A stretch of 39,740 bases of DNA from Actinobacteria bacterium HGW-Actinobacteria-5 (lineage in GTDB: Bacteria; Actinomycetota; Actinomycetes; Propionibacteriales; Propionibacteriaceae), in the NCBI GenBank assembly GCA_002843035.1, contig PHEV01000009.1, forward strand, positions 1 to 39,740, written 5' to 3'. The notes below the pieces were generated by a model, which saw only the letters and a list, made by a program, of their open reading frames with translations, made no database searches and was not told the origin of the DNA. Of this stretch, positions 6,476-39,740 are shown in pieces. The translations under genes and the position numbers were made by a program. How positions within the stretch are numbered: position 1 is the stretch's first letter; each line of letters begins with the position of its first letter.

Positions 6476-9400
6476 TGGGGTTCAACAACCCGCCGATGAC
6501 GTGGCGCACGCTGGAACGCACGCTGAGCAGTCCCGACCGGCTCAACCGGGTGCCGGCGCAGGACGTCCCGGTCTCCTGGCGGCGAGGTCCGTATGTGCCG
6601 CCGCCCATCGAGCGTCCGGACGACGCGGTGCCCTACGCCGAACTGCACGCCCACTCGTCCTTCTCCTTTCTGGACGGTGCGTCCGGTCCGGCCGAACTGG
6701 CCGAGGAGGCGGAGCGGCTCGGCCTGCACGCCCTGGCGATCACCGACCACGACGGCCTCTACGGCATCGTCCGGTTCGCCGAGGCGGCCGAGACCATGCA
6801 CCTGAAGACGGTGTTCGGCGCCGAGCTCTCGCTCGACCTGCTCGCGCCGCAGGCCGGGCAGCCCGACCCTGCCGGTTCGCACCTGTTGGTGCTGGCGGCA
6901 GGGGAGGAGGGCTACCACCGGCTGGCCGCGGCGATCACGCACGCCCAGCTCGCCGGTGGTGAGAAGGGGCGGCCCACCTACGACCTGGACGACCTGGCCG
7001 CCCGCGCCGACGGGCACTGGGTGGTGCTGACCGGCTGCCGCAAGGGCGCGGTGCGGCAGGCGTTGCGCAGGGACGGGGCCGAGGCCGCCGGACGCGAGCT
7101 GGACGAGCTGGTCGCGTTGTTCGGCCCCGAGCGGGTGTTCGTCGAGCTCAACGACCACGGCGCGCCGCTCGACTCCACCCACAACGACGCGCTGGCCGCG
7201 CTGGCCGCCATCCGCGGTCTGCCGACGCTGGCCACCGGCAACGTCCACTACGCCACCCCGGCACAACACCCACTCGCACAGGCGGTGGCCGCCGTCCGGG
7301 CCAACCGCAGCATGGACGCCCTGGACGGATGGCTGCCGGCCGCCGGGACGGCCTTTCTGCACACAGGGGCGGAGATGGATGCACGGTTCGCCCGCTATCC
7401 CGGCGCGGTTGCCCGCACCGTCGCGCTGGCCGACGAGCTGGCGTTCCCGCTGCGCAGGGCGAAGCCAGCCCTGCCGAAGCAGGAGGTGCCCGACGGGCAC
7501 ACCCCGATGAGCTGGCTGCGGCAGCTGGTCTGGGAGGCCGTGCCGTCCCGCTATCCCGACCTGACGCCGGCGAACGCCGAGCGGATCGAACGGGAGCTGG
7601 CGGTGATCGAGGCCAAGGACTTCCCCGGCTACTTCCTGATCGTGCACGACATCGTGGCCGAGGCCCGCCGCCGCGGCATCCTGTGCCAGGGCCGTGGGTC
7701 CGCGGCGAACTCTGCGGTCTGCTACCTGCTGAACATCACCGCCGTCGACTCGATCGCCTTCGACCTGCCGTTCGAGCGGTTCCTGTCGGCGTTGCGCGAC
7801 GAGGAGCCCGACATCGACGTGGACTTCGACGCCGACCGGCGCGAGGAGATCATCCAGTGGGTGTTCGCCAGGTACGGACGCGAGCGGGCCGCGCAGGTCT
7901 GCAACGTGATCCAGTACCGGCCGAAGAACGCCGTCCGTGACATCGCCCGGGCGCTCGGGTACAGCCCCGGCCAGGGCGATGCCTTCGCCAAGCAGGTGGA
8001 ACGGTGGGGGTCGTCGCTGGCCGCGGACGCGCACGAGCTACCCGGGCCGGTGGCCGACCTGGCCACCCAGCTGCTGAAGGCCCCCCGGCACCTGGGCATC
8101 CACTCCGCCGGCATGGTGCTCACGGAGCGCCCGGTGGGGGAGGTGGTGCCGATCGAGCACGCCCGGATGGAGAACCGCACGGTGATCCAGTGGGACAAGG
8201 ACGACGCCGCCTGGATGGGCCTGGTGAAGTTCGACCTGCTCGGGCTCGGCATGCTCGCCGCGATGCAGCACAGCTTCGACGCGATTCGCGGCGCGACCGG
8301 TGAGGAATGGGAGCTGGCGACGCTGCCGAAGGAGGAGCCGGGCGTCTACGACATGCTCTGCCGGGCCGACTCGATCGGGGTGTTCCAGGTGGAGTCGCGC
8401 GCCCAGATGGGGCTGCTGCCGAGGCTCCAGCCGAGGCGGTTCTACGACCTGGTGATCCAGATCGCGCTGATTCGTCCCGGCCCGATCCAGGGCGGCGCCG
8501 TGCATCCGTTCGTGCGCCGCAAGCTGGGTCGCGAACCGGTCACCTACCCGCACCCGAGGCTGGAACCGGTGCTGAAGCGGACCCTGGGCGTGCCGGTGTT
8601 CCAGGAACAGCTGATGCAGATGGCGATGGCGGTGGGCGACTGCAGCGGCGAGGACGCCGACCTGCTGCGCCGCGCGATGGGCTCCAAGCGCGGCCTGGAG
8701 CGGATCGAGTCGTTGAAGGCCAAGCTGTACGAGGGCATGGCCCGCAACGGCCTGGTCGGGGCGGAGGCCGACCACCTCTATGCCCAGATCCAGGCGTTCT
8801 CGAACTTCGGTTTCGCCGAGTCGCACTCGCTGAGCTTCGCGCTGCTGGTCTACGCGTCCAGCTGGCTGAAGCTGCACTATCCCGCAGCATTCCTCGCCGG
8901 GCTGTTGCGCGCGCAGCCGATGGGCTTCTACTCCCCGGCCACCCTGGTCACCGATGCGAAGCGCCACGGCGTGAACGTGCTACGTCCCGACCTGGTCTGG
9001 TCCGGGGTGGACGCCGGGCTGGAGTTCGAACCCACTGCCGGATCCCGAGACGTTCGATTCGACGGGGATCGGGAACGACTGGTCGAAGGACCGACCGGCC
9101 TCGACTCCTGCCTCGAGCGCCAGCAACCACCCGTCGGGGAGTTCGATGCGTCCGCTCCCGACACCTCCGCCACCCATCGCAGGGACGGCAGCTTCGCCGT
9201 CCGGCTGGGGCTGGCCGGCGTCCGGGGGATCGGAAGGGACGTGGCGGGCCGGATCGTCACCGAACGGGAGGCGCACGGCGCCTACGCCTCAATGGAGAAC
9301 CTCGTTCGCCGTACCGGGCTGACCGCAGAGCACCTGGAGGCGCTGGCGGCGTCCGGGGCGCTGGAGTGCCTGGGCCTGACCCGGCGGCAGGCGCTGTGGC

Positions 9401-9897
9401 GGGCGGGCAGCGCGGCGCTGGACCAGCCGGGCTCGTTGCCGGGCACGCTGATGGATTCACAGCCGTTGTTGTTCGACGACCCGTCCCCGGTCGAGGTGCT
9501 CGCCGACGACCTGTGGGCCACCGGGGTGAGCACCGGCGACCACCCGATCGGCCAGTTGCGCGAGGAGCTCTCGGCGCGGGGCGTGCTGAGCACGGCCGAT
9601 CTCGCCACGGCCGAGCCGGACCGCCGGGTGGAGGTGGGGGGCCTGGTCACGCACCGGCAGCGTCCGGCGACCGCGTCCGGGATCACCTTCCTCAGCCTCG
9701 AGGACGAGCACGGTCTGGTGAACGTGGTTTGCTCGGTGGGGGTGTGGCAGCGGTTCCGCCGGGTCGCCCGCTCCTCCCCGGCGCTGGTGGTGCGCGGCAA
9801 GCTCGAACGCTCCGAGGAGGGCGTGGTGAACGTGGTTGCCGACCATCTCGAGCCATTGCCGATCATGGTCGTGCACAGGTCGCGGGACTTCCACTAG
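6475..9897 (+). CDS. dnaE2: DnaE2, error-prone DNA polymerase III alpha-type subunit
   Basis: The 1140-residue polymerase performs SOS-induced mutagenic lesion bypass. A PHP domain opens with AELHAHSSFSFLDG (55-68) and AITDHDGLYG. The C-family palm contains CQGRGSAANSAVCYLLN, then EEPDIDVDFDADRREE with the catalytic aspartates D448 and D450, and D587 in KFDLLGLGML. The tail holds helix-hairpin-helix and OB-fold segments (VEVGGLVTHRQRPAT, ITFLSLEDEHGLVNVV) and the family-typical end SRDFH. A roughly 50-residue insertion (about 851-903) interrupts the region before LGLAGVRGIG. The ATG at 6475 overlaps the imuB stop by one base. Length and tail distinguish it from the replicative DnaE1. Confidence 0.97.
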   Translation: MGFNNPPMTWRTLERTLSSPDRLNRVPAQDVPVSWRRGPYVPPPIERPDDAVPYAELHAHSSFSFLDGASGPAELAEEAERLGLHALAITDHDGLYGIVRFAEAAETMHLKTVFGAELSLDLLAPQAGQPDPAGSHLLVLAAGEEGYHRLAAAITHAQLAGGEKGRPTYDLDDLAARADGHWVVLTGCRKGAVRQALRRDGAEAAGRELDELVALFGPERVFVELNDHGAPLDSTHNDALAALAAIRGLPTLATGNVHYATPAQHPLAQAVAAVRANRSMDALDGWLPAAGTAFLHTGAEMDARFARYPGAVARTVALADELAFPLRRAKPALPKQEVPDGHTPMSWLRQLVWEAVPSRYPDLTPANAERIERELAVIEAKDFPGYFLIVHDIVAEARRRGILCQGRGSAANSAVCYLLNITAVDSIAFDLPFERFLSALRDEEPDIDVDFDADRREEIIQWVFARYGRERAAQVCNVIQYRPKNAVRDIARALGYSPGQGDAFAKQVERWGSSLAADAHELPGPVADLATQLLKAPRHLGIHSAGMVLTERPVGEVVPIEHARMENRTVIQWDKDDAAWMGLVKFDLLGLGMLAAMQHSFDAIRGATGEEWELATLPKEEPGVYDMLCRADSIGVFQVESRAQMGLLPRLQPRRFYDLVIQIALIRPGPIQGGAVHPFVRRKLGREPVTYPHPRLEPVLKRTLGVPVFQEQLMQMAMAVGDCSGEDADLLRRAMGSKRGLERIESLKAKLYEGMARNGLVGAEADHLYAQIQAFSNFGFAESHSLSFALLVYASSWLKLHYPAAFLAGLLRAQPMGFYSPATLVTDAKRHGVNVLRPDLVWSGVDAGLEFEPTAGSRDVRFDGDRERLVEGPTGLDSCLERQQPPVGEFDASAPDTSATHRRDGSFAVRLGLAGVRGIGRDVAGRIVTEREAHGAYASMENLVRRTGLTAEHLEALAASGALECLGLTRRQALWRAGSAALDQPGSLPGTLMDSQPLLFDDPSPVEVLADDLWATGVSTGDHPIGQLREELSARGVLSTADLATAEPDRRVEVGGLVTHRQRPATASGITFLSLEDEHGLVNVVCSVGVWQRFRRVARSSPALVVRGKLERSEEGVVNVVADHLEPLPIMVVHRSRDFH
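9022..9183 (+). repeat. Putative in-frame repeat-derived insertion in dnaE2
   Basis: Residues about 850-903 of DnaE2 have no counterpart in the family pattern as I know it, where the hydrophobic strand is followed closely by the RLGLxxVR motif. The DNA is rich in TTCGA, GGTCGAA and CCTCGA half-sites in both orientations, like the GGTCGAG repeats at the imuB start. The frame stays open. This is an inference from family knowledge. Confidence 0.4.
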
Positions 9898-28957: not shown

Positions 28958-29944
28958 ATGGACGTCGTGGACTGGCTGCTCGACGGCGAGCCTGCCGTCG
29001 AGCTGGCGACCCGCGTCCGGCTGCTCGGCGAGGACGCGGCATCACCGCTCTGCGTGGACCTCCGCCGGCGGCTGATGGTCGAGGGCACGGTGCCGGCCAT
29101 CCTCGCCGCGCAGGGACCTGACGGGCACTGGGGAGAGCGGGACCGGTTCTACACGGCCAAGTACACCGGCACCGTGTGGTCCCTGCTGATCCTCGCCGAG
29201 TTCGGCGCGGACGGATCCGATCCACGGATCCGCGCCGCCATCGAGGCCATCCTGGCCGACAGCCGGCACCCCGCGTCCGGCGCCTTCGGCATGAGCAGGT
29301 CGCGGCGTGACGGCGGGGGTACGGGCGCTTCTGTGATCCCGTGCCTCACCGGCAACATGGCCTTCGCCCTTCTGCGGCTCGGCCAGGCAGAAGACCCGCG
29401 GGTGCGCGCGACGATCGACTGGATCACCACCTACCTGCGCTTCGACGACGGGGACGGCCCGGCACCCACCGGCTGGCCCTACGACACCTACGAGATGTGC
29501 TGGGGACGCCACACCTGCTCGATGGGCATCGTGAAGGCGCTGAAGGCGTTGGCGGAACTCCCGGAACCGCGACGCACGCCAGCGGTCCGCGACACGATCG
29601 CCTCCGCCGCCGAGTGGCTGCTCGTCCACCACGTGCACAAGCGCAGCCACGACCTGGCGAAGGTTTCGAAGCCGGGCTGGACGAAGTTCGGGTTCCCCCG
29701 GATGTACCAGACCGACGCGCTGGAGATCCTGCTCCTGCTCACCCGGCTGGGGTACGCCGACGAACGCATGGACGAGGCGCTCGACCTCGTGGCGGCCAAG
29801 CGCGACGATTCCGGACGCTGGCTGCTGGAGGACACCTTCAACGACCGGTTCGTCACGGCCGTCGAGACGCGACGCGAACCCAGCCGCTGGGTGACCCTGC
29901 ACGCACTCGAGGTGCTGGCAGCCCGGTCCGCGCGGGCGTGCTGA
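28958..29944 (+). CDS. Alpha/alpha-toroid (prenyltransferase/squalene cyclase-like) repeat protein
   Basis: The 328-residue cytoplasmic protein is built of helical pairs in the style of terpenoid cyclase/prenyltransferase toroids: ILAAQGPDGHWGERDRFYTAKY, TVWSLLILAEFGADGSDPRI, GNMAFALLRLGQAEDPRV, TDALEILLLLTRLGYADERM and DSGRWLLEDTF. The QW-like G-x-W segments fit, but the DxDD acid motif of squalene-hopene cyclases and the zinc ligands of prenyltransferases are not evident. A striking YEMCWGRHTCSMG segment holds two cysteines and a histidine. Members of this group are often mislabelled in databases; I know of no proven function. Confidence 0.75.
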   Translation: MDVVDWLLDGEPAVELATRVRLLGEDAASPLCVDLRRRLMVEGTVPAILAAQGPDGHWGERDRFYTAKYTGTVWSLLILAEFGADGSDPRIRAAIEAILADSRHPASGAFGMSRSRRDGGGTGASVIPCLTGNMAFALLRLGQAEDPRVRATIDWITTYLRFDDGDGPAPTGWPYDTYEMCWGRHTCSMGIVKALKALAELPEPRRTPAVRDTIASAAEWLLVHHVHKRSHDLAKVSKPGWTKFGFPRMYQTDALEILLLLTRLGYADERMDEALDLVAAKRDDSGRWLLEDTFNDRFVTAVETRREPSRWVTLHALEVLAARSARAC

Positions 29945-29956
29945 GCCGGACTCGGA

Positions 29957-30181
29957 TCAGACGGTGCCGAAGCCGACCGGACGGGTCTTCTCCTGACCGA
30001 GGTCGATGTAGGCGATCTTGTCGGCGGGCACGAGCACCCGGCGTCCCTTCTCGTCGGTGATGGCGAGCATGGTGCCGTCGGCGAGGGCCTTGCGCAGGTC
30101 GGTCTCGACCTCGGCGCCGGTGGCCTCGGTCTCGACCGTGAGCTCACGGGCCACGTGCTGAATGCCGATCTTGATCTCCAC
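29957..30181 (-). CDS. DUF3107 family protein
   Basis: The 74-residue protein matches DUF3107, a small family conserved through Actinobacteria and sometimes called an ATP-binding protein without clear support. It reads MEIKIGIQHVARELTVET, then a helix EVETDLRKALADGT, and strands MLAITDEKGRRVLVPADKIA and YIDLGQEK, a compact beta-rich fold. The GTG start is preceded by GAGGAGG with a five-base spacer, one of the best ribosome sites in the window. It is converging with the toroid gene, with 12 bases between. Its function is unknown. Confidence 0.92.
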   Translation of the reverse strand: MEIKIGIQHVARELTVETEATGAEVETDLRKALADGTMLAITDEKGRRVLVPADKIAYIDLGQEKTRPVGFGTV

Positions 30182-30208
30182 CGGTTCCTCCTCGTTGTCG
30201 CGCTCGCC

Positions 30209-30214
30209 AAGCTA
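30209..30214 (-). promoter_or_regulatory. Predicted -10 element of the DUF3107 gene
   Basis: TAGCTT on the minus strand lies 27 bases ahead of the GTG at 30181, leaving a leader of about 21 bases that carries the GAGGAGG ribosome site. Confidence 0.4.
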
Positions 30215-30271
30215 CCAGCGGGAGTGGTGAGAGCGGACCCTCGTACGCCGAGAGCGCAACGGGCGGACCCG

Positions 30272-30362
30272 GTGTGGACGAAAAGGAGAACCGTCCCCTA
30301 ATCGGCCAACGGGCGCGGGGGCGTGTGGACGAAAAGGGGACGGTTCTCCCTTTCGTCCAACG
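30272..30362. repeat. Inverted and direct repeat pair with GGGGACGGTTC core
   Basis: GTGTGGACGAAAAGG begins two units at 30272 and 30323. The first continues with GGAGAACCGTCCCC (30285-30298), the exact reverse complement of GGGGACGGTTCTCC (30336-30349) in the second. Within the second unit GGACGAAA (30327-30334) also pairs with TTTCGTCC (30351-30358). The element fills the gap between the end of the FHA gene and the start of DUF3107 and may end transcription of the long signalling operon. Confidence 0.88.
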
Positions 30363-30368
30363 GGAAGA

Positions 30369-31247
30369 TCAGCCGGCGAGCGCTTCCTTCTCGTCGTCGG
30401 TGGCGCGGCGGATGACGATCCTGGTCCAGGCACCCACGTAGATGCGCTGGCCTGGAGTGAGCTCGACGCGTCCCTGGGGGATCGGCATCGCCGGCAACGG
30501 ACCGGCGGCACCCCCGACGAACGTGCCGTTGGCCGAATCGAGATCCTCGATCCACCAGCGGGTGCCATCCGTGGTGAGCATGGCGTGGCGGCGGCTGCAC
30601 CCGGTGTCGAGCTCGCAGTCGACGTCGGGGAAGATGCCGCGGCTGTGTGAGACCCGGCCGATCAGGTTGCTCTCCTTCACCAGCGGCACGATGTCGGGCA
30701 GGCCGGGGGAAGGAAGCGGGTCGGTGGAGCCCTGGGCGGAGTACCAGTCCGGGTCGATCCACAACTCGGCGACCCATTCCACCGCGGGACGAGCCGGTGC
30801 GAGCGCGGCCTGTGCCGGTGCTTCCGCCTCGTGCGGCGCCGGCGACTCCGCCTCGAAGACGGCCTCGGGGTCGCCTTCGGTGACCACGTCGTGGGTCACG
30901 GCTGCGTCGTGGGGCCCCGGTGCCGCGACCGCCATCTCCGGGACCGCGGGGTCGGGAGCAGGCAGGGGCACCGCACCCGTTCCGGGGACGGGGTCCGGCG
31001 TGGGCAGACCGGGCCAGGACACCGCGGGAGCTGCCGGCATCGCGCCGGTGGTGAAGTCGAAGCCGCACGCCTCGCAGAACAGCGCGTCCGCAACGTTCGC
31101 GGTCTGGCAGTGCGGGCACACCACCGGGGTGGGCGCGGCCTGCGGCGCGACGGGCGCAGGGGACGCCTGCGCCGCGGACACCGGCAGTCCGCAGGTGTCG
31201 CAGAAGTCGGTCTGGCTCGTCTCGTGCCCGGCCGGACAGATCGGCAT
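30369..31247 (-). CDS. FHA-domain protein with two N-terminal zinc ribbons
   Basis: The 292-residue protein starts with two zinc ribbons (C4, H8, C16, C19 and C44, C47, C58, C61). A long Pro/Ala-rich linker follows, then an FHA domain from about residue 190: G197-R198, S218-RRH221 and N240-G241 are the phosphothreonine-binding signature residues. It should read phosphothreonine on a partner. In mycobacteria the FHA protein GarA is phosphorylated by PknG on an ETTS motif ahead of its FHA domain; that motif is not seen here, so it is at best a functional analogue. Its start lies two bases beyond the VWA stop, which places it as the last gene of the minus-strand operon. Confidence 0.92.
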   Translation of the reverse strand: MPICPAGHETSQTDFCDTCGLPVSAAQASPAPVAPQAAPTPVVCPHCQTANVADALFCEACGFDFTTGAMPAAPAVSWPGLPTPDPVPGTGAVPLPAPDPAVPEMAVAAPGPHDAAVTHDVVTEGDPEAVFEAESPAPHEAEAPAQAALAPARPAVEWVAELWIDPDWYSAQGSTDPLPSPGLPDIVPLVKESNLIGRVSHSRGIFPDVDCELDTGCSRRHAMLTTDGTRWWIEDLDSANGTFVGGAAGPLPAMPIPQGRVELTPGQRIYVGAWTRIVIRRATDDEKEALAG

Positions 31248-31248
31248 G

Positions 31249-32529
31249 TCAGCCCCTGATCCTCGTGGTCTTGGTCGAAGCCGTGTCCAGCGCCATCTCG
31301 TCTGCCTTCTCCACGGCCTTCTTCAGCCTCACGGTACCCGTCCGGGCGTCCGCGATGTCGACGACCTTCCGCAGTTTCGAGGTGGCCTCTGTATTGCCGC
31401 TCTCCGTGGCCAGCTGGACGGCGCGGCCCAGCTTGGTGGTCGCGGTCGCCTCGTCGCCGACCGCCTTCGCCGCGAGCCCCTCCTGGATCACCTGGGCGAG
31501 CTCGGCCTGCCCGGTGTAGTGCGCCACCTCGGGATTGATCTGGGCGGTGAGGTTCGTATCCGCCGACCACTTGGCCTTGACCAGGCCCTGGGTGAGCAGG
31601 TCGGGCCCGACCGCCAGCTGGACGCGCGCGGCCAGCTGCTCCTGGCCGACCGACTTTGCGGCGAGCCGTACCGCGACGTGGTAGTCGCGCTCCTCGTCGG
31701 CCCACGCGCCGGTCGGGTAGCTCATCGTGAGCTGGTTCACCGGCGTGCCGCGGTGGGTGAGGTCTTCGACCGTGGGGGAGACCTGGCGGATGAACAGCAC
31801 CTGCGCGCCCTGCGGGATCCATACCCGCAGGTCGGCGTTGGCCACGCCGCGAGCCATCGACTGGCGCATCAGCTCGGCGAAGACCGCACTCATCTGGCCG
31901 GGATCACCGATGATGTCGACCGTGCCCAGCATCGCCTGGGCGATCTTGCGGATCTCGGCCACCTTCCAGTCCACGCCGACCCCGCGGGCGTCCACCTGGA
32001 AATCGCCCGCGCAGTTGGCGATCGCCTGGTCGAGCTGCGTGGCGGTCTCGTTGTGGTTCTCGCCGTCGGTGAGCAGGATGACGTGCTTCTGGGCGATGTT
32101 CCCGATCGAGGCGAACAGCGCCTTGCACAGGTTCAGCCAGGTGCCCATCGCGGTGCCGCCCTCGGCGCGGAAGAAGCTGATCGCGCGCCGGGCCTCGGCC
32201 CGCGTCCTGGCGTCCATCCGGACCATGCCCGCCCCGGTCTGCACCATCGGGTAGGCGAGGTAGGCCTTGTGGTTGCCGGCGACCACGGCGAAGTAGGTGC
32301 CGTCGAGGATGTTGTCCAGCGCGATCATGGCCGCCTGCTTGGCCGCGTTCATGTTGGCGACGCCCATCGAGCCGGACGTGTCGACCACCACGATCTCACC
32401 GGCGTCGCCGCTCCCGGTTCGCCCGGCCGATCCGGCGCCGGTGCAGCGGATCGTCACGATCGCGCTGACGTCGGTGCCGCCGTCGGGCAGGAACTCGTTC
32501 TGGTAGACGGCGGAAGTGAACTCAGCCAT
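31249..32529 (-). CDS. VWA-domain protein (TerY-like), probable phospho-signalling partner
   Basis: The 426-residue protein has a von Willebrand A domain with a complete metal-ion-dependent adhesion site: VVVDTSGSMG (D50, S52, S54), a threonine in EGGTAMGTW and the aspartate in ILLTDGENHNE. No signal peptide or membrane span is present, so it should act in the cytoplasm as a ligand-binding or scaffold protein. The C-terminal third is helical and rich in Ala and Lys (KAVGDEATATTKLGRAVQL), resembling a repeat domain. Cytoplasmic VWA proteins coupled to a kinase and a PP2C phosphatase are known from TerY-type triads. The ATG overlaps the PP2C stop by eight bases; an upstream in-frame extension is unlikely. 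Confidence 0.92.
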   Translation of the reverse strand: MAEFTSAVYQNEFLPDGGTDVSAIVTIRCTGAGSAGRTGSGDAGEIVVVDTSGSMGVANMNAAKQAAMIALDNILDGTYFAVVAGNHKAYLAYPMVQTGAGMVRMDARTRAEARRAISFFRAEGGTAMGTWLNLCKALFASIGNIAQKHVILLTDGENHNETATQLDQAIANCAGDFQVDARGVGVDWKVAEIRKIAQAMLGTVDIIGDPGQMSAVFAELMRQSMARGVANADLRVWIPQGAQVLFIRQVSPTVEDLTHRGTPVNQLTMSYPTGAWADEERDYHVAVRLAAKSVGQEQLAARVQLAVGPDLLTQGLVKAKWSADTNLTAQINPEVAHYTGQAELAQVIQEGLAAKAVGDEATATTKLGRAVQLATESGNTEATSKLRKVVDIADARTGTVRLKKAVEKADEMALDTASTKTTRIRG

Positions 32530-33766
32530 GCTGCGGCTGCTCCTTGTCTTCTTCGGTGGGGGCCGCACCCAGAGTACCGGGCGAACCGGGCGCCGCCGGG
32601 GCCGGGACCCGCGCGAGCGCCACAGTCACGTTGTCGTGCCCTCCCTGGCCGTTCGCCCAGGTGGTGAGGTGCTGCGCGACCGCGAGCGGGTCGGTGCCGG
32701 TGGGCAGCTGGGCGGCGAGCTCGTCCGGTGTCGAGGCGTAGTTCCACAGGCCGTCCGTGCAGACCACGAGCCAGCCGGGCTCGGTGACCTGCAGGACGCC
32801 TGTTCGCGGGACCGTGTCGACCGAGTCGCGGCCCAGCCATTTGGTGATCGCGTGGGCGCGGGGGAGCGCCTCGGCCTCCTCCCGGGGCATGCCCTCGGCG
32901 ATGAACGCCTGGGCCATCGAGTCGTCGAGGCTGAGCAACTGGTGCGCGGTCTCGCCGAGGAAGTACACGCGCGAGTCGCCGAGGTTCGCGAAGTGGACTC
33001 GATCACCCACGACCACGGCGGCGGCGAACGTGGCGGAGGCGGCATTCGTGCTGTCCGCAGCGGTGGTCGCGATCACGGCGCGGTTGGCCTCGGCGACGGC
33101 CTCGACCAGGGCCTGGGCCATCGCGGCGTCCTCGCCCTGCTCGCCGGCCACCACCGACGAGCTGCGGGCCGTGAGCACGTCGCAGGCGCGCCCTGCGGCG
33201 GCCATCGCGGCCACGTCGGAGTCGATACTGGTGGAGACGCCGTCGCAGACCACGAGCACGGCACGGGTGCCCTCGGCCCACAGGGCCATCGCGTCCTCGT
33301 TGCGGTGGTGCTGGATGCCGCGGTCGCAAACACCGCCCACCCAGGGGCCAGGAGCCACGGCGAAGTGGTCGCGCAGGCTGGGCGCCTTCGCCCCGCACGT
33401 CTGGCAGTAGCCGTCGGCGCCCACCGTGCCGCCGCAGGCCGGGCAGGCGATCACCTGGCTGGCCCGGGAACCGAGCCGTCTGGTCTGGGCGGACACGTCC
33501 CCGGAAGGAGTGGCAGGTGCGGCGGGGGCTGCAGTGGGTAGCAGCGGACCGCCGCAGGCCTCGCAGTACCAGGCGGCCGGGTCGACCGGCTGCCCGCAGC
33601 TGGGACAGCTCGACCCGGTGGGAACCGCGCCCGGCATGCCCGGGGTCGCCGGCTGCGCCGGTTCGGCCACCAGCCCGCGATCCGGCTCCCCGGGCGCCGG
33701 TGCGGCGGCGGGGTTCGGCTCGCGGGGCTGGCCCTGGTCCATGACAGGCCACTCGGGTTGGGTCAC
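32522..33766 (-). CDS. PP2C-type serine/threonine phosphatase with two zinc ribbons
   Basis: The 414-residue protein carries a proline-rich start, two zinc ribbons (C54, C57, C68, C71 and C108, C111, C121, C124) and a PP2C domain from about residue 130. Metal-site motifs are VCDRGIQHHRNEDAM, VLVVCDGVSTS, ANLGDSRVYF, VVCTDGLWNY and GGHDNVTVAL. The usual DGxGG is DGVST here, but the metal aspartates are kept, so an active phosphatase is expected. It likely reverses the work of the adjacent kinase. The GTG at 33766 makes a GTGA overlap with the kinase stop and follows GGAG at six bases; a GTG four codons earlier is the alternative. Confidence 0.93.
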   Translation of the reverse strand: MTQPEWPVMDQGQPREPNPAAAPAPGEPDRGLVAEPAQPATPGMPGAVPTGSSCPSCGQPVDPAAWYCEACGGPLLPTAAPAAPATPSGDVSAQTRRLGSRASQVIACPACGGTVGADGYCQTCGAKAPSLRDHFAVAPGPWVGGVCDRGIQHHRNEDAMALWAEGTRAVLVVCDGVSTSIDSDVAAMAAAGRACDVLTARSSSVVAGEQGEDAAMAQALVEAVAEANRAVIATTAADSTNAASATFAAAVVVGDRVHFANLGDSRVYFLGETAHQLLSLDDSMAQAFIAEGMPREEAEALPRAHAITKWLGRDSVDTVPRTGVLQVTEPGWLVVCTDGLWNYASTPDELAAQLPTGTDPLAVAQHLTTWANGQGGHDNVTVALARVPAPAAPGSPGTLGAAPTEEDKEQPQHG

Positions 33767-36072
33767 AGCAGGCTCCACGGACGCAGGGAGTTGGCCACGT
33801 CGACGTACCCGGCGCGGACCTCAGGGATCTCGGCGAGCCTGCCCAGCTCGCGGTAGCTGGCCACCAGCTGGTCACGGATCATGCCCGGGGTGTGGGTCTG
33901 GCCGCCGAGCTTGAGCGAGTTGGTTCCGGCCAGGGCGAGGGCGCGCCGGTAGAGCAGCGCACGGTACTCGGCGTCGGTCTTCGGGTCGAGCTTCGCCTGC
34001 GCGAGCGCCCGGAAGGCCTCGTCCAGCCCGGCGGCGTCCCTGGCCAGCGAGACCAGGTGCTGGGCCTTGAGCCGCTGCGACTCCGGGTAGCCGCGGGACG
34101 TGCTCGGCACCAGTTCGAGCGCGGCGAGCGAGCCGGGCAGGTCGTTGCGGGCAGCCCGCACCCGCGCGAGGCCGAAGGCCGCCGGCGTCACGTACGCCGC
34201 GTCCGTGCTCGCACAGGTTCGGTAGAGCGTCTCCGCGATGTCGAGTTCACCGCCGAGCTCACAGGCCACGGCGAGGGCCAGTTTCGGGGCGAGCTCGCCC
34301 GGCACCTGCCCGTACACGGCGTTGAACGAACTCTGCGCGGTGCGGTAGTCGCGAGCCTGGAGGGCGCCCAGCCCGGCCAGCCAGACCGCGCGCCACTCCC
34401 ACGGGTCGTTGCTGAGCAGTCGCCGGACGCACTCGTCCACCAGCTGGGCGTTGTTGGCCTCGAGCGCGGCCTGTCCGCGGGCGAGCAACACTCCGGGGGA
34501 GAGGGACGGCGGCGCCGACAGGGCGGCGAGTCGCTGGACCGGATCCTCCGCGCTGATCCGGGACAGCCAGGCCGCCTGCGGGTCGGACGGGTCGGGGCGC
34601 AACTGCGGCAGCTGCCGCTGCCCGTGCTGCTCGCTGGCCACCGTGGGGCCTTCGAACAGCATCGACGTGGACGTGGTGGTGCCGACCCCGGGGGTGGCGT
34701 CCGCCACGACCTCGCGCAGCACACCGAGCATCTGCAGCCGAAGCTCTTCGGCGGAGGTGAAGCGGTCGTTCGGGTCGATGGCGCAGCTCTTGAGCAGCAA
34801 CCGGTACAGCGAGTCGTGCGCCGCGAACGCGGGCAGTTCTTCCGCGGGCGGGATCTTGAACTCGTAGGTGCTCTGGTAGCCGGGGACGTCCGAGGTGAGC
34901 ACCAGCAGCGTCCGGCCCACCGTGAAGATGTCCGAGGCGATGGACGGCCCGAGCGTGGCCACCTCGGGAGCCTGGTAGCCGACCGTGCCGTAGATCGCCG
35001 AGTCCTCGTCACCGATGTGACGCACGCCGCCGAGGTCGATCAGCTTGAGCGAGTCACCCACCTGGATCACGTTGTCGGGCTTGAAGTCGCAGTACAGCAG
35101 GCCCAGTTCGTGCAGGTACCCGAAGGCGGGCAGGATCTCGATCAGGAACGCCAGCGCCTGGTCGACCGGCAGCGGGTTGCTGACGCCGTTGTTGGTGGTC
35201 ATCCGCTGCTTGAGCAACTGCTTGAGCGAGCGGCCGCCGACGTACTCCATCACGATGTAGCCGGCGTCGTCGTGGGTGACGAAGTTGTAGATCTCCACGA
35301 TCAGCGGGTGCTCCACCCTGGCCAGGAACCGCTGCTCGCCGATCGTCGCGGCCACCGCGTCGGCGTCCCCGGCATTGAGCAGGCCCTTCAGCACCACCCA
35401 GCGTCCGGACACGTTGCGGTCCTGCGCCAGGTAGATCCAGCCCATCCCGCCGTGGGCGAGTGCGCCGACGACCTCGTACTGGTTGGCGACCACGTCGCCG
35501 GGGTGCAGCTTCACCGTGAACGAGTAAGGCGCGCCGCAGGACGGGCAGAAGCCCTCCGAGCGCGACTCGACCTGGTCGCCGCCCTGGCCGACCTTGGTCC
35601 CGCACCGCGGGCAGACCCGCGCGTCGAGGGGCACCTCCGGGTTGGCGAGTACCGCCTTGGTCGGGTCGATCGCCGGAGCCGGCGGTACCCGGGTGAGCCC
35701 AGCCCCGATCCGGCCACTGGTCAGGCGGTCGGCGCTGGTGTGCCGGGTCGGCCGCCCGCCGAACGAGGTGGCCCTGGCCGAGCCGAGCGCCGTCGAACCG
35801 AGGTGGATCGACGTCCGGGTTGCGGTGGAGCCGGGAGAGGCCGGGGTGGCCGCGGCCGGCGCGGGCGGGACGTCGGGCGAGCCGCACACGTCGCAGTAAC
35901 CGTCGATGATGTGGCCCGGGCACCCGGGCTGGCGGCAGGCGCCGGTGGATCGGGTGGACGGACGCGCGCCCGGCGCGCCGTGACCGGCCGGCATCGACAC
36001 CCCCGGCATGCCGCAGACGTCGCAGTAGCCGTCGACGATCGTTCCGGTGCAGCCGGGCTGGAGGCACTTCAT
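33763..36072 (-). CDS. pknG: PknG-type serine/threonine protein kinase with zinc ribbons and TPR domain
   Basis: The 769-residue protein has the PknG layout. Rubredoxin-like cysteines C154, C157, C176 and C179 precede the kinase, which holds GALAHGGMGWIYLA, the lysine K229 in VVLKGL, YCDFKPDN and LIDLGGV in place of DFG. A C-terminal TPR-like region from about 520 contains LAGLGALQARDYRTAQSSFN. PknG is a soluble kinase that senses amino acids and redox state and steers glutamate metabolism in mycobacteria. Unlike that enzyme it has two extra ribbons (C3, C8, C17, C20 and C46, C51, C60, C63) that are near copies of each other. The ATG overlaps the preceding stop by four bases (ATGA). Confidence 0.95.
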   Translation of the reverse strand: MKCLQPGCTGTIVDGYCDVCGMPGVSMPAGHGAPGARPSTRSTGACRQPGCPGHIIDGYCDVCGSPDVPPAPAAATPASPGSTATRTSIHLGSTALGSARATSFGGRPTRHTSADRLTSGRIGAGLTRVPPAPAIDPTKAVLANPEVPLDARVCPRCGTKVGQGGDQVESRSEGFCPSCGAPYSFTVKLHPGDVVANQYEVVGALAHGGMGWIYLAQDRNVSGRWVVLKGLLNAGDADAVAATIGEQRFLARVEHPLIVEIYNFVTHDDAGYIVMEYVGGRSLKQLLKQRMTTNNGVSNPLPVDQALAFLIEILPAFGYLHELGLLYCDFKPDNVIQVGDSLKLIDLGGVRHIGDEDSAIYGTVGYQAPEVATLGPSIASDIFTVGRTLLVLTSDVPGYQSTYEFKIPPAEELPAFAAHDSLYRLLLKSCAIDPNDRFTSAEELRLQMLGVLREVVADATPGVGTTTSTSMLFEGPTVASEQHGQRQLPQLRPDPSDPQAAWLSRISAEDPVQRLAALSAPPSLSPGVLLARGQAALEANNAQLVDECVRRLLSNDPWEWRAVWLAGLGALQARDYRTAQSSFNAVYGQVPGELAPKLALAVACELGGELDIAETLYRTCASTDAAYVTPAAFGLARVRAARNDLPGSLAALELVPSTSRGYPESQRLKAQHLVSLARDAAGLDEAFRALAQAKLDPKTDAEYRALLYRRALALAGTNSLKLGGQTHTPGMIRDQLVASYRELGRLAEIPEVRAGYVDVANSLRPWSLL

Positions 36073-37196
36073 CGGGTCCTCCGGGAGAGGTAGTCCAGCT
36101 GCGCGGAGAACGCGGCGAGCAACTGCTGCGTGACCGGCAGGACGACCGGCGTGGCGGCCAGCGCGCTCTGGATCGCCGGGACCAGCGCGACCAGTTGGGG
36201 ATCCGTGGCGTGGCCGAGCGCCGCAGCCTTGGCCTGCAGGGCCGGCAGCAGCGCGGCGGTCGCGTCCCGGTCGGCCAACGTCTTGGCCAGCGCGGTGTGG
36301 ATCTCGGTGAGTTGGGTGTCCACCCGGGTCAGGGCGTCCACGTACCCGCCCAGCGCGGCCCGCGTGTTGGGCACCGGTCCCAGCCCGGCGACGCTCGGCA
36401 CCACGGCGGCGGGGGCCGGCCAGACGGCCGCGGCGACCTGAGCCGAGAGAGCGCGTACCGCCTGCTCGCGGGCGGAAGCCTCGGCGAGCTGGTCACGCGC
36501 CCTGGTGAGCAGATCACGGGCCTCGCGGCGCTGGGACGCCCCGACGATCAGGTCGCGTTCCAGCCGCGCCGCGTCGATCTCGAGGCTGCCGAGCAGGCCC
36601 CCGATGTCGCCGCCGCGTTGCCGCTTGTCGGAGAGGTCCTGGAGGCGTGCGGCGAGGGCGGCGAGCTTCGCCTGGGAGCCGGGGGCGAGCACCGGCGGCT
36701 CGAGCTTCACCTGGTCGCGGATCCGCTCCAGTTGTGCGCGCAGGTCGCGCAGCCGGATCTGCTGCTGCTCGGCGTTCGGGTCGGTGTTGAGCCGGGTGCG
36801 CAACTGCGCGACCAGTGCGTCGCACAGGCGCCCGGCCTCGGGCAGGGAGACCGCCATCGACTGCAGCTGGGCGACCTCGCTGCCCGCGGTGTCGAGGCGT
36901 CCCCAGATCAGGGCGGAGAGCCGCTCCAGTTCCTGCTGTCCCACCCGGCCCGAATCCCAGGTGGCCAGGAGCAGGTTCTGCCGGGTCTTCGCCGCCTGCC
37001 ACAGGGCGAGAGCCAGGCCCATGTCGCCGGTGAGCTCCGCCTGCCGGCCCGAGCCGACGATCTGCTCGTCGAGCGCGTCCAGCTCGGCCCTACGCTCACC
37101 GAGCCAGGCGTCCAGCTTGCCGAGGTAGTTGAGCAGGTCGGCCGCGCGGGCTGCGACGCCGAGGCTGCCGGGGGCGGCGGGGGAGACGGTACTCAT
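36069..37196 (-). CDS. Coiled-coil protein of unknown function in the kinase operon
   Basis: The 375-residue protein is nearly all helix: LLNYLGKLDAWLGERRAEL, LDALDEQIVGSGRQAEL, EQQQIRLRDLRAQLERIRD, AARLQDLSDKRQRG and LLTRARDQLAEASAREQ. A proline-valine segment (about 270-290, WPAPAAVVPSVAGLGPVP) separates it from a C-terminal helical bundle. There is no signal peptide, membrane span or catalytic motif. It overlaps the GlnX-like gene by four bases upstream and the kinase by four bases downstream (ATGA both times), so it is made together with them. A link between membrane sensor and kinase is the natural guess, but the family is not known to me. Confidence 0.8.
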   Translation of the reverse strand: MSTVSPAAPGSLGVAARAADLLNYLGKLDAWLGERRAELDALDEQIVGSGRQAELTGDMGLALALWQAAKTRQNLLLATWDSGRVGQQELERLSALIWGRLDTAGSEVAQLQSMAVSLPEAGRLCDALVAQLRTRLNTDPNAEQQQIRLRDLRAQLERIRDQVKLEPPVLAPGSQAKLAALAARLQDLSDKRQRGGDIGGLLGSLEIDAARLERDLIVGASQRREARDLLTRARDQLAEASAREQAVRALSAQVAAAVWPAPAAVVPSVAGLGPVPNTRAALGGYVDALTRVDTQLTEIHTALAKTLADRDATAALLPALQAKAAALGHATDPQLVALVPAIQSALAATPVVLPVTQQLLAAFSAQLDYLSRRTR

Positions 37197-38479
37197 CGGT
37201 ACTCCCTGAGCCGCTGGTAGAGGCCGAGGACGCCCAGGGCCGCGCCGACCAGGGCGATCAGGATCACGAGGACCAGCTGGATGACCAGGGTTGCGCGGGC
37301 GCTGGTCGGCGCGGAGGACGCGACCGTGACCGCGCTGTCGGAGACGTCGCGCGCGGTGTCACGGACCGTCTGGGCCGCAGCGGAGAGAGACTTCTTGGCG
37401 GTGTCGGTCAGCGCGGTCGCGGCCGCCTTCCATTCGCCCTTCGACATCTGGGTGTCGAGGGCGTCCCGGGCGTCGGTGAAGGTGCTCAGGCCGGTCAGGT
37501 TCTCCTTGTTCGCCGCGACCGTCGCCGACTTCACCTCCCGGGTCTGGTTGGCCCGGGCGGCCGCGTCCCAGGTCTGGGTGAGCACGGCCGTGGTCAGGAC
37601 CTGCTGCGCGGCGTCGAGGTGCTGGACTGCCGCGGAGGTGTTCACCACGCGGGAGAACTGGGTCGACCGGCTGGTGTCCGACGCGCTGATGGCGGCGCCC
37701 TGGGCTGCCGCGGTGATGCTGAGTAGCGCGAGCAGGGCGACGACGGCGGCGGCGAGCCCGAGGTTGACCACGCGGTGGCTGCGCTGCGCCACGACCCAGG
37801 AGGCCCACACCACGACCGCGACCATGGCGAGGCAGACCAGCCAGACCGCGGGGGTGCCCTGGCTCCAGGGTCTGGCGTCCGCCTCCGCGGCGAGTTGCGC
37901 CTGAAGATCGTCGAGCTGGCCGAGCAGGGCGTCGAGCTGCTTCTGGGCGACGGCCAGGCGGGGCAGGGCCTGGGCGCGAGGGGAGCCGACGGCGGAGGCA
38001 AGGGTGAGCGAGTATCGCAGGGTGTCCCCGCCGATGGCTTGCAGCGCCTCGGCGTCCTGGGGCCGGTCCTTCGCCGACTCGACCAGGAGGCCGGACGCTG
38101 CGACGACCTGGTCGATCGCCGCCGTGGCGTTCGCGCCGCTTGCCGTCTCACCGAGGATCACGCTCACCTTCGCGAGCCGTGCCGCGGCGCTGAGGTCGTG
38201 CTGCACTTCTCCGAGCCGGGCGTACTGCTGGGCCAGGTTCGGCGCGGAGGCGAGGTCACCGCGCAGGTCGGCGATCACCCAGACGCTCATCGCTCCGGCG
38301 ATGAGCACGGCCAGCGCGACCACCACCTGCAGGCGCTGCAGCAACCATGGCGTCCGGCTCGGCACCGGCGTGGCGATGTCGAAGGATGGCGTGCCGGAGG
38401 GCACGGGCGGGATGCCGGTCGGCGCGGTTCGTGCGGGCGTCGGGCCCGGAGCCGCGACAGGCGCGGGTGCCTGGCTCAC
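37193..38479 (-). CDS. GlnX-like four-span membrane sensor protein
   Basis: The 428-residue protein has a proline-rich cytoplasmic start and four membrane helices at about 50-70, 207-227, 236-258 and 398-420. Two predicted helical extracytoplasmic domains of about 135 residues lie between helices 1-2 and 3-4. That topology and its position just upstream of a PknG-type kinase recall GlnX of mycobacteria and corynebacteria, which with the binding protein GlnH passes amino-acid availability to PknG. No glnH is in the window, although it could lie beyond the right edge. Sequence identity with GlnX cannot be judged here. The GTG start forms a GTGA overlap with the AAA+ stop. Confidence 0.75.
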   Translation of the reverse strand: MSQAPAPVAAPGPTPARTAPTGIPPVPSGTPSFDIATPVPSRTPWLLQRLQVVVALAVLIAGAMSVWVIADLRGDLASAPNLAQQYARLGEVQHDLSAAARLAKVSVILGETASGANATAAIDQVVAASGLLVESAKDRPQDAEALQAIGGDTLRYSLTLASAVGSPRAQALPRLAVAQKQLDALLGQLDDLQAQLAAEADARPWSQGTPAVWLVCLAMVAVVVWASWVVAQRSHRVVNLGLAAAVVALLALLSITAAAQGAAISASDTSRSTQFSRVVNTSAAVQHLDAAQQVLTTAVLTQTWDAAARANQTREVKSATVAANKENLTGLSTFTDARDALDTQMSKGEWKAAATALTDTAKKSLSAAAQTVRDTARDVSDSAVTVASSAPTSARATLVIQLVLVILIALVGAALGVLGLYQRLREYR

Positions 38480-39740
38480 GGCTGCACCACCGGCGGTGCG
38501 GGGAACTCGACAGGCGGGATGGGGCCCGCGGACTCGGGCGGGGTGAGGTGGGTCGGGTCGTCGTCGCGGGCCGGTTCCGGGGCGGGCGGGGTGTCGTCGA
38601 TGAGGTCGCCGGGGATCAGCGTGCGGAGCTGCTCCAGGGTGGGCTCTGCGACCTCGCGCAGCCGCCAGGCGTGGCGCCCGACCGCGGCCTCCAGCAGGTT
38701 GCGCGCGTAGCGACCGTTGCCGAAGTTCTCGTCGCGCACCTGCTCGGCCAGCTGGCGGTTGAACTCCTCGATCACGCCCTCGCCGAGGTCGTAGTCGGAC
38801 TTTGACGCCATGTGGCCGAAGATGGCCCGCAATTCCTCGTCGGTGTAGTCCTCGAAGTCGATGGTGGTGCGGAACCGGCTGGCCAGGCCCGGATTGTTCT
38901 GGATGAACTGCGCCATCGGCACCGGGTAGCCGGCCACGATCACGACGAGATCGTCGCGGTGGTCCTCCATCTCCTTGACCAGGGTGTTGATCGCCTCCTC
39001 GCCGTACTGGTCGCCGTTGAGGGAGTAGGCCTCGTCGATGAACAGGACGCCGCCGTAGGCCTTGGCTGCGACCTCCGCGGTCTTGATCGCGGTCTGGCCG
39101 AGGTAGCCGGCCACCAGCTCGGAACGGTCGACCTCGACCAGTTGGCCCTTGCTGAGCAGGCCGATCGCCTTGTAGATACCCGCGACGAGCCGGGCAACCG
39201 TGGTCTTGCCGGTGCCGGGGTTGCCGACGAAGATGAGGTGCCGGGTGATCGTCGGGCTCTTCAGGCCGGCCTTGGTGCGCATCGCGTCGACGCGCAGGAT
39301 CGCGGTCTGGCGGCGGATCTCGGTCTTCACCCGGGCCAGGCCGATCAGCTCATCGAGCTCGGCCAGCCACTCCTCGACGGTCTTCTCCGGCTCCTCGGGC
39401 TGCTCGGGCTCGGGCTCGGAGGATTCGGCGGCGGCGGGCTGGGCGGGCTCGCCGGCCACCGGCGTTGCGCCGGCGGACGGAGTAGTCGCGCCCGGCACGC
39501 TCGAACCCAGCGTGGGGGTGGGGAACGGCATCCCGCTCAGGCCGGGGAAGGCACCCCCCGCCCGCGGGTCGAGGCGGCTCACGTCGAGCAGTTGCTGCTG
39601 ATTGCTCGCGGACAGCCGGGACAACACGTCGGTGAGGATGGCGGGGGCCTGCCGGAGGAACTCGCGCTGGGCCTCCTCGTCGGAAGCGGGTGCCGGCGTG
39701 GGCGTGGACGGGTGGCCGCCGGCACGGGGAAGCTGCGCGG
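38476..39740 (-). CDS. AAA+ ATPase of the CbxX/CfxQ (EccA-like) family, 5' end outside window
   Basis: At least 421 residues are visible; the frame stays open to the right edge, so the start is missing. A disordered Pro/Glu/Ala-rich part is followed by the acidic helix EKTVEEWLAELDELIGLARVK. The AAA+ domain has Walker A FVGNPGTGKTTVARL, Walker B GGVLFIDEAYSL, a pore-loop region near LVAGYLGQTA and the arginine finger in NPGLASRFRT. CbxX-type ATPases include Rubisco activase CbbX, SpoVK and EccA of type VII secretion; there is no secretion gene here. In this setting it may remodel the signalling proteins, which is an inference. The C-terminus is a proline-rich tail. Confidence 0.9.
   Translation of the reverse strand, partial: AQLPRAGGHPSTPTPAPASDEEAQREFLRQAPAILTDVLSRLSASNQQQLLDVSRLDPRAGGAFPGLSGMPFPTPTLGSSVPGATTPSAGATPVAGEPAQPAAAESSEPEPEQPEEPEKTVEEWLAELDELIGLARVKTEIRRQTAILRVDAMRTKAGLKSPTITRHLIFVGNPGTGKTTVARLVAGIYKAIGLLSKGQLVEVDRSELVAGYLGQTAIKTAEVAAKAYGGVLFIDEAYSLNGDQYGEEAINTLVKEMEDHRDDLVVIVAGYPVPMAQFIQNNPGLASRFRTTIDFEDYTDEELRAIFGHMASKSDYDLGEGVIEEFNRQLAEQVRDENFGNGRYARNLLEAAVGRHAWRLREVAEPTLEQLRTLIPGDLIDDTPPAPEPARDDDPTHLTPPESAGPIPPVEFPAPPVVQP

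Follow-up and report, generated by a model that had tools for sequence, protein, structure and literature searches.

Seven minus-strand genes at one end of a contig from Actinobacteria bacterium HGW-Actinobacteria-5 (Propionibacteriaceae; assembly GCA_002843035.1, contig PHEV01000009.1) are part of one conserved, ordered unit that is widespread in actinobacteria. The whole contig (C247; 39,740 nucleotides, GC content 69-75%) is referred to below as the window. The seven genes encode an AAA+ ATPase, a GlnX-like membrane sensor, a conserved all-helical protein that we call CC (for coiled coil), a PknG-type Ser/Thr kinase, a PP2C phosphatase, a VWA protein, and a zinc-ribbon FHA protein. We propose, with moderate confidence, that they belong to an expanded PknG signalling system with a vWA/FHA phospho-switch. 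We do so because relatives share an order of ten genes, the same 28 of 57 family genomes hold its key members, the kinase has the domains of PknG, the VWA protein has the fold of ArnB and the FHA protein matches ArnA, Thr421 is near-invariant in the VWA tail, an OdhI-like protein of the same genome carries the motif SGDTTRVIPP, and the Arn proteins set a precedent for such a switch.

A tightly coupled set of seven genes

The genes and the proposed phospho-motif are located as follows.

38476..39740, minus strand: AAA+ ATPase, SpoVK/CbxX/EccA-like, with its 5' end lost at the contig end (PF00004, 63 bits; PF17866, 57.7 bits).
37193..38479, minus strand: GlnX-like membrane sensor, diverged (NF058618, 57 bits over residues 43-428, cut-off 250).
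36069..37196, minus strand: CC, a conserved all-helical protein without known family, directly 5' of the kinase gene.
33763..36072, minus strand: PknG-type Ser/Thr kinase with N-terminal CxxC motifs (rubredoxin PF16919, 75 bits; kinase PF00069, 96 bits; TPR PF16918, 144.5 bits).
32522..33766, minus strand: PP2C phosphatase with an N-terminal double zinc ribbon (PF13672, 52 bits; PF12773, 29.9 bits).
31249..32529, minus strand: VWA protein with an ArnB-like three-domain fold, i.e., vWA, beta-sandwich, and C-terminal helical domains (PF18571, PF00092).
31252..31302, minus strand: C-terminal tail of the VWA protein, DEMALDTASTKTTRIRG, a proposed phospho-motif (Ser418, Thr421) taken from an alignment of 119.
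30369..31247, minus strand: zinc-ribbon FHA protein, ArnA-like, with N-terminal ribbons and a C-terminal FHA domain (PF00498, 41.6 bits; PF13240, 25.1 bits, cut-off 25).

All seven genes are real, with a GC content of 0.88-0.95 at third codon positions, and the tight coupling claimed in the preliminary description is confirmed by the junctions read from the sequence. The AAA+ and GlnX genes meet at GTGA, GlnX and CC at ATGA, CC and kinase at ATGA, kinase and PP2C at GTGA (33763-33766), and PP2C and VWA at ATGGCTGA (32522-32529), and a single base separates the VWA and FHA genes. In this arrangement, the PP2C start is placed at GTG 33766, which overlaps the kinase stop, and the VWA start at Met 32529 rather than at the longer-frame start 32568, the frames of many relatives opening at the same Met. 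The proposed identities of the sensor, kinase, PP2C, VWA, and FHA proteins also hold, the rubredoxin, kinase, and TPR domains of the kinase all scoring above the Pfam cut-offs and a VWA_3_C domain being found in the VWA protein by Pfam/NCBIfam scan. The AAA+ gene is real but incomplete, because the window is the whole contig and its end cuts the gene; the product scores 264 bits against TIGR02881, under the cut-off of 422.95, and a longer relative is present in locus L064. What we take to be the vWA DxSxS motif, the Walker motifs, and the CDFKPDN and DLG segments of the kinase appear intact by eye in the translations. No sigma-70-like promoter was matched in 29800-39740, in a scan expected to be weak in high-GC DNA, nor was any minus-strand terminator-like match found there, the single terminator-like site being on the plus strand and power at high GC being expected to be low.

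Conservation of gene order in actinobacteria

The best 80 of 589 matches in a VWA profile scan provided loci in named genomes of Propionibacteriaceae, Nocardioides, Kribbella, Intrasporangiaceae, Cellulomonas, Promicromonospora, Kineosporia, and others. The order in relatives is TelA - conserved protein of about 190 residues (the ~190-aa protein) - AAA+ - GlnX - GlnH - CC - PknG - PP2C - VWA - zinc-ribbon FHA. We counted it, by best hits on the VWA strand, in the 64 of these 80 loci with at least 8.3 kb upstream and 0.5 kb downstream, the other 16 being dropped because a contig end was too near (L156 holds 3,860 masked bases). All ten genes were found in 44 loci, GlnH alone was missing from 8, and 12 were partial; the order was never broken. 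TelA heads the cluster in 55 loci, GlnH is matched in 49, and CC is encoded just before the kinase in 60. Since the loci were found through VWA, they are uninformative on the frequency of VWA itself. Judged by its VWA protein, the window is near Propionibacteriaceae such as Propionicimonas and Micropruina; among the matches listed, the closest VWA protein (93% identical) is from a Propionibacteriaceae metagenome-assembled genome.

The same picture emerges from 57 genomes of the family, in which CC was matched in 28, VWA in 28, the PknG TPR domain in 29, and TelA in 33 (29 above 290 bits). When the lists were compared by eye, the genomes with CC and those with VWA were the same 28, all of which also have PknG and a high-scoring TelA. 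Genome G002 (82% complete) has TelA without CC, VWA, or PknG. One further genome, G029, has a PknG match and no CC, VWA, or TelA match, and offers a natural reduced case. A single order is seen throughout the 27 stretches around CC genes of other family genomes, with TelA in 26, the ~190-aa protein in 26, AAA+ in 25, GlnX in 23 (by tblastn), GlnH in 9, the kinase and PP2C in 26 each, and VWA and FHA in 22 each. As for the five stretches without VWA/FHA, two (L055, L056) run into a contig end, and in the other three (L059, L060, and L067, from G014, G006, and G041) the VWA gene lies outside the stretch, about 5-9.5 kb from PP2C.

In other families, a seven-gene core occurs without TelA/AAA+. 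A class-level follow-up covered 20 stretches from 18 CC-matching genomes, in which CC lies upstream of the kinase in 18, 17 of them also having VWA; among those 18, L193 has a kinase fragment only and L192 an FHA match between CC and kinase. The arrangement GlnX-GlnH-CC-PknG-PP2C-VWA-FHA is found in five f80 loci (L184, L187, L191, L193, L198) and two f5 loci (L182, L183), and the f79 loci L185, L186, and L190 read CC-PknG-PP2C-VWA-FHA-GlnX-GlnH, with L189 the same minus PP2C and FHA matches. All ten genes are present in L195 (f75) and seven in the f4 loci L083 and L084; L083 shows an apparent CC-kinase fusion caused by a frame break, and this locus was retained in A2 and excluded from A3, A4, A5, and the proteins folded. 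Four f80 loci (L192, L194, L199, L200) have no PP2C match and resemble a diverged second kind. A weak CC match in L197 (G534) was taken as false, there being no cluster gene nearby. Rarity of this gene adjacency in relatives, an outcome that would count against a single system, is thus not what we observed, the order being kept across many families. As for the preliminary suggestion of a novel combination, the coupled set stands, but the cluster is old and widespread, and TelA, the ~190-aa protein, and GlnH can add up to three genes to it.

Two of these genes lie upstream of AAA+. TelA (PF05816, 294 bits in L064) is followed by the ~190-aa protein, which measures 169-211 residues among 20 aligned members. 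In the genome under study, TelA and at least the first ~170 residues of the ~190-aa protein are found at the extreme end of another contig, C80, which fits a contig break inside the unit between the ends of C80 and C247, two contigs that are not joined here. XpaC, presumably a TelA neighbour elsewhere, was considered for the ~190-aa protein and found no support: a scan of 20 members gave weak matches, none of them to an XpaC family.

GlnX, the PknG-type kinase, and OdhI

GlnX, GlnH, and PknG share one pathway in Corynebacterium glutamicum and mycobacteria (PMC9769921, PMC6069109; here and below, published statements are taken from the available parts of the cited texts), and a glnX-glnH-pknG operon is reported as conserved (PMC6069109, PMC8546545). 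The words "phosphatase" and "von Willebrand" are absent from the available text of PMC6069109. An analogy with this trio had been drawn for the window, and its GlnH part fails: the best GlnH match in the genome is 25% identical, three genomes of the same genus give no match, and in the window the GlnX and CC genes overlap directly with no GlnH between them. GlnX proteins score 221-255 bits in four family loci with GlnH (L062, L063, L064, L069) and 29-108 bits in seven without it (the window, L051, L053, L057, L066, L071, L073); L058 is an exception, with no GlnH and a GlnX of 204 bits. In the same position as the window protein (57 bits), the GlnX proteins of L062 and L063 reach 255 and 251 bits, above the cut-off of 250. 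GlnX thus seems, from these scores, to change after GlnH loss. With GlnH gone and GlnX changed, the signal in the lineage of the window is therefore probably not GlnH-bound Asp/Glu.

The kinase has rubredoxin, kinase, and PknG-type TPR domains in one chain and matches the PknG structure 2pzi with an E-value of 3e-131. We placed it in a tree of 45 of the kinases at hand (L117 and L078 are missing by length, and L080 forms a long branch). Four f5 kinases from short loci form a clade (100/99), three of them (L085, L086, L089) from GlnX-GlnH-PknG loci and one (L087) with PknG alone in its stretch; CC was not found near the kinase in these four short loci. This clade is sister to two f5 kinases of seven-gene loci, and the six together (100/100) lie inside the cluster-type kinases. 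Because of this nested position, read with a paralogue outgroup, the short GlnX-GlnH-PknG operon appears to be a reduced form within the stretches examined, which do not extend to whole f5 genomes; the root rests on long-branched paralogues, and the deeper fork is weak (92/87). A second, distant PknG-like kinase is encoded in L079, L081, and L082, beside a VWA protein in which C-terminal CxxC pairs replace the Thr tail, and with no PP2C match.

PknG is known to act on OdhI (PMC8546545, PMC9769921), its target being OdhI Thr14 (PMC9769921), and the corresponding motif of GarA is ETTS (PMC12321487). The genome under study has a 2-oxoglutarate dehydrogenase (ODH) and an OdhI-like FHA protein with SGDTTRVIPP before its FHA domain. 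Five of the 16 OdhI-like loci were read for this motif, giving DTTR three times and ETTK once in the same genome and genus, and DTTS in G051, which has no PknG match. The OdhI-like protein of the genome (L100, on contig C185 of the same genome) also has an N-terminal CxxC zinc-ribbon-like stretch, a feature shared with three cluster products, namely the kinase, PP2C, and FHA.

An ArnB-like VWA protein and an ArnA-like FHA protein

In Sulfolobus, ArnA and ArnB form a vWA/FHA switch controlled by kinases and phosphatases, in which ArnC phosphorylates several Thr in the C-terminal helical domain of ArnB (ETTRR is among the phosphorylated peptides), the ArnA zinc finger holds unphosphorylated ArnB, the ArnA FHA domain binds phosphorylated ArnB, and PP2A dissociates the complex (PMC6509490, PMC12852372, PMC7472852). 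The VWA protein of the window, as modelled, has the ArnB fold. Its AlphaFold2 model, with a mean predicted local distance difference test score (pLDDT) of 84.5, matches over its full length structure 4fx5 from Catenulispora, also the target of a 540-bit match by the VWA profile, and next ArnB itself (8s05_A; Z 30.8, root-mean-square deviation (rmsd) 2.9, 362 aligned, residues 2-422). All three domains are likewise matched by the ArnB paralogue 5a8j (Z 26.1, rmsd 3.5, 346 aligned). The likeness of 4FX5 to Arn proteins is already in print, the available text of that source holding nothing on gene neighbours.

The FHA protein, with its N-terminal zinc ribbon and C-terminal FHA domain, resembles ArnA: the only PDB sequence matches at E <= 0.001 are the ArnA chains 5a8i (E 5e-5) and 8s05_C (E 1e-5), through the FHA part. 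Its predicted pocket residues are well kept, with Arg198 in 111/115, Ser218 in 115/115, and Asn240 in 115/115. The name PknG is absent from the available text of PMC12852372, and among the publications listed we found none joining PknG with the VWA/FHA/PP2C set or with ArnA/ArnB, in a search that left out most subscription journals and is no proof of novelty.

The C-terminal tail of the VWA protein was examined in an alignment of proteins of 370-470 residues (119 rows including the window and the diverged L192, L194, L199, and L200). The f4 paralogues L079, L081, and L082, with their zinc-ribbon tails, and frames cut short were kept outside, and the rows are not independent, some probably representing one genome twice (e.g., L074/L142 and L073/L111). 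Position 421 is Thr in 118 rows and Ser in one, and Ser418 is Ser in 118. Among the 53 Ser/Thr columns of the protein, only Ser52, Ser54, Thr126, and Thr154 are as fixed, and the first three of these belong to the vWA domain. Thr422 is Thr in 90 rows and position 424 Val/Ile in 102. Beyond residue 417, the model has little structure, and its confidence is low at the very end. The resulting motif TTR[IV] resembles TTRV in the OdhI-like protein of the genome, and judging by this resemblance the fixed Thr may be equivalent to OdhI Thr14, the first of the pair.

A conserved helical protein upstream of the kinase

CC has no Pfam, NCBIfam, or PADLOC match. Its AlphaFold2 model is confident locally (pLDDT 92.7; predicted template modelling score 0.59), and a Foldseek search of the PDB gave nothing at E <= 0.001. 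We considered membership of TelA or another known family and rejected it, there being no Pfam match for the window protein and, among 41 relatives, one stray (SpecificRecomb, E 0.006; threshold E <= 0.01). The best structural likenesses in VIA (8fbi, Z 10.5, rmsd 30.6; EzrA 4uxv, Z 10.1, rmsd 6.8, 236 aligned) were discounted because they are within the chance level for long helices according to that tool. At class level, the CC profile matches 97 of 393 genomes, 13 near full length and 84 partially, the partial matches mostly covering ~70-150 C-terminal residues with low scores. CC proteins of other families align with the window family only over the C-terminal 73 columns (hhalign 81%, E 1.3e-5). 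In 41 of 60 loci of relatives, the CC gene is able to start 4 bases inside the stop of the preceding gene, starts having been picked by script as those nearest to a 4-base overlap.

Neighbouring features of the window

Directly after the FHA stop, at 30272-30364, a 42-base repeat whose inverted arms measure 34 bases occurs twice, with 76% likeness between the copies; it is possibly a terminator or a small repeat element. Beyond it lies a gene of 74 residues (MEIKIGIQHVAREL...) at 29957-30181 (minus strand), which presumably belongs to the DUF3107 family. A similar start follows FHA in L062, L064, and L068, and this gene may therefore be part of the unit or simply a constant neighbour. On the plus strand, a Ku gene is found within 659-1453, and 4886-9897 holds a DnaE-type polymerase gene preceded by an IMS-family (ImuB-like) gene, a pairing that is the usual mutagenic-repair cassette.

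Discussion

Of the closest known systems, two share much with the set. As in the GlnX-GlnH-PknG operon of mycobacteria and corynebacteria, which carries Asp/Glu signals to GarA/OdhI, there is a PknG kinase with rubredoxin and TPR domains, a GlnX-like sensor, and an OdhI-like protein elsewhere. However, that operon has three genes and ours seven to ten, with CC, PP2C, an ArnB-like VWA, and an ArnA-like FHA added, plus AAA+ and TelA in many lineages, and GlnH was not found in the genome of the window. Since GlnH is not encoded with the kinase there, the set at most resembles the GlnX-GlnH-PknG system in its working, and we do not file it as a member. As in the ArnA-ArnB pair of the Sulfolobus archaellum regulatory network, a three-domain VWA protein and a zinc-ribbon FHA protein are neighbours, with a near-C-terminal Thr motif and kinase/phosphatase partners. 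In contrast to that pair, our set is bacterial, with a PknG-type kinase and PP2C instead of ArnC/ArnD and PP2A, its single TTR[IV] motif occupies the last residues whereas ArnB has several Thr within its helical domain, and the interaction of its VWA and FHA proteins is predicted.

In the expanded PknG system that we propose, GlnX (with GlnH where present) would sense an extracellular signal, which CC would relay to, or tether at, PknG. The kinase would then phosphorylate Thr421 in the TTR[IV] tail of VWA and, by analogy, the TTRV motif of the OdhI-like FHA protein. The zinc-ribbon FHA protein would sit loosely on VWA and, like ArnA on ArnB, clamp upon phosphorylation of the tail, and PP2C could reset the switch by removing the tail phosphate. 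The output would comprise metabolism, via OdhI, and any binding partners of the VWA/FHA complex. TelA, the ~190-aa protein, and AAA+ would form a further optional module, perhaps remodelling the complex. More tentatively, an ArnA/ArnB-type vWA-FHA phospho-switch could have been the ancestral immediate output of PknG, with CC linking GlnX to the kinase and the three-gene mycobacterial operon being a stripped-down descendant.

Several findings weigh against this proposal. By VWA profile, the ArnB chain scores E 8e-4 and ranks behind several unrelated VWA proteins, and the fold is therefore the stronger evidence. In the FHA pocket, His221 is kept in 88/115 and replaced by Gln in 27/115. ArnB mutants in single Thr pairs still bound or had normal motility after long phosphorylation, according to the available parts of the Arn papers; ArnB is phosphorylated on several Thr and so does not work as a one-Thr switch. 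Outside families f1, f2, and f75, CC is matched only partly, mostly at the C terminus, with 20-41 bits. Nor is VWA-FHA linked to PknG without exception: a distance of 3.5-8.7 kb separates the pair from PP2C in L110, L127, and L170, and L159 and L180 gave no kinase match upstream on the same strand. The OdhI-like protein of the genome scores 143 bits, below the cut-off of 200, and family genomes in which PknG was not matched (G003, G007, G049, G051) have such proteins too. Finally, no PF16870 (2-oxoglutarate dehydrogenase) match was found in the cluster-bearing genomes G021, G026, and G043, which still keep an OdhI-like protein. The OdhI-ODH output is therefore not general and not the whole output.

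This last point bears on the first alternative, a plain PknG-OdhI pathway in which the kinase controls 2-oxoglutarate dehydrogenase via OdhI/GarA, and PP2C, VWA, FHA, and CC are accessories without output of their own. Such a pathway is documented (PMC8546545, PMC9769921), and it would agree with the PknG domains and kinase similarity and with the presence of an OdhI-like protein with a TT motif and of ODH in the genome. We nevertheless consider it unlikely, as the three genomes without PF16870 keep the cluster (L076, L074, and L073, with L074 lacking AAA and GlnX matches), and strong conservation is seen in the VWA tail and in most of the FHA pocket. An account in which TelA-~190-aa-AAA+, GlnX-GlnH, CC-PknG-PP2C, and VWA-FHA are modules travelling together, not one machine, draws on the breaks seen at module borders: f4 stretches have no TelA or AAA match, GlnX-GlnH comes behind the other genes in the f79 loci L185, L186, L189, and L190, and VWA-FHA is split off in L110, L127, and L170. 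This is quite improbable in the face of the start-stop overlaps that tie AAA, GlnX, CC, kinase, PP2C, and VWA in the window, of the CC overlap possible in 41/60 loci (with starts picked nearest to it), and of the matching presence and absence across the 57 family genomes.

Least probable of all, and by our estimate very improbable, is a TerY-P-like stress or anti-phage module of kinase, PP2C, and VWA with a SpoVK-type AAA+, a label that the preliminary description had brought in as a TerY-type triad. The gene kinds are similar, the PP2C (PF13672, 52 bits) included, a SpoVK-like AAA+ is nearby, as for TerY-P triads in some CoCoNuT systems (PMC11090510), the kinase domain matches the PD-T4-6 and mad6 models, and relatives have TelA. 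However, TerY-P is defined by a kinase with a C-terminal zinc ribbon and a TerY-like VWA (PMC11090510), whereas our kinase is PknG-type, with N-terminal zinc motifs, rubredoxin, and the PknG TPR at its C terminus, and our VWA is ArnB/4fx5-like over its full length (TerY being judged by description). Moreover, FHA, VWA, CC, and GlnX have no PADLOC match, and the order is conserved over many genera, which is unexpected for a defence island. The triad label is dropped on the architecture of the kinase. A defence system was rejected as well, the PADLOC matches being only of kinase, PP2C, and ATPase type.

The expanded PknG system would connect a nutrient kinase of bacteria with a starvation switch known from archaea. 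If the VWA tail motif TTR[IV] truly copies the OdhI motif, one kinase would drive both OdhI control and a membrane-linked VWA/FHA assembly. How the GlnX signal reaches PknG has been called still elusive (PMC9769921), and CC is a concrete candidate for this relay. The cluster also supplies a genetic setting for TelA. With a near-invariant Thr tail, an FHA reader, a kinase, and a phosphatase in one set, the question of the substrate becomes directly testable with purified proteins.

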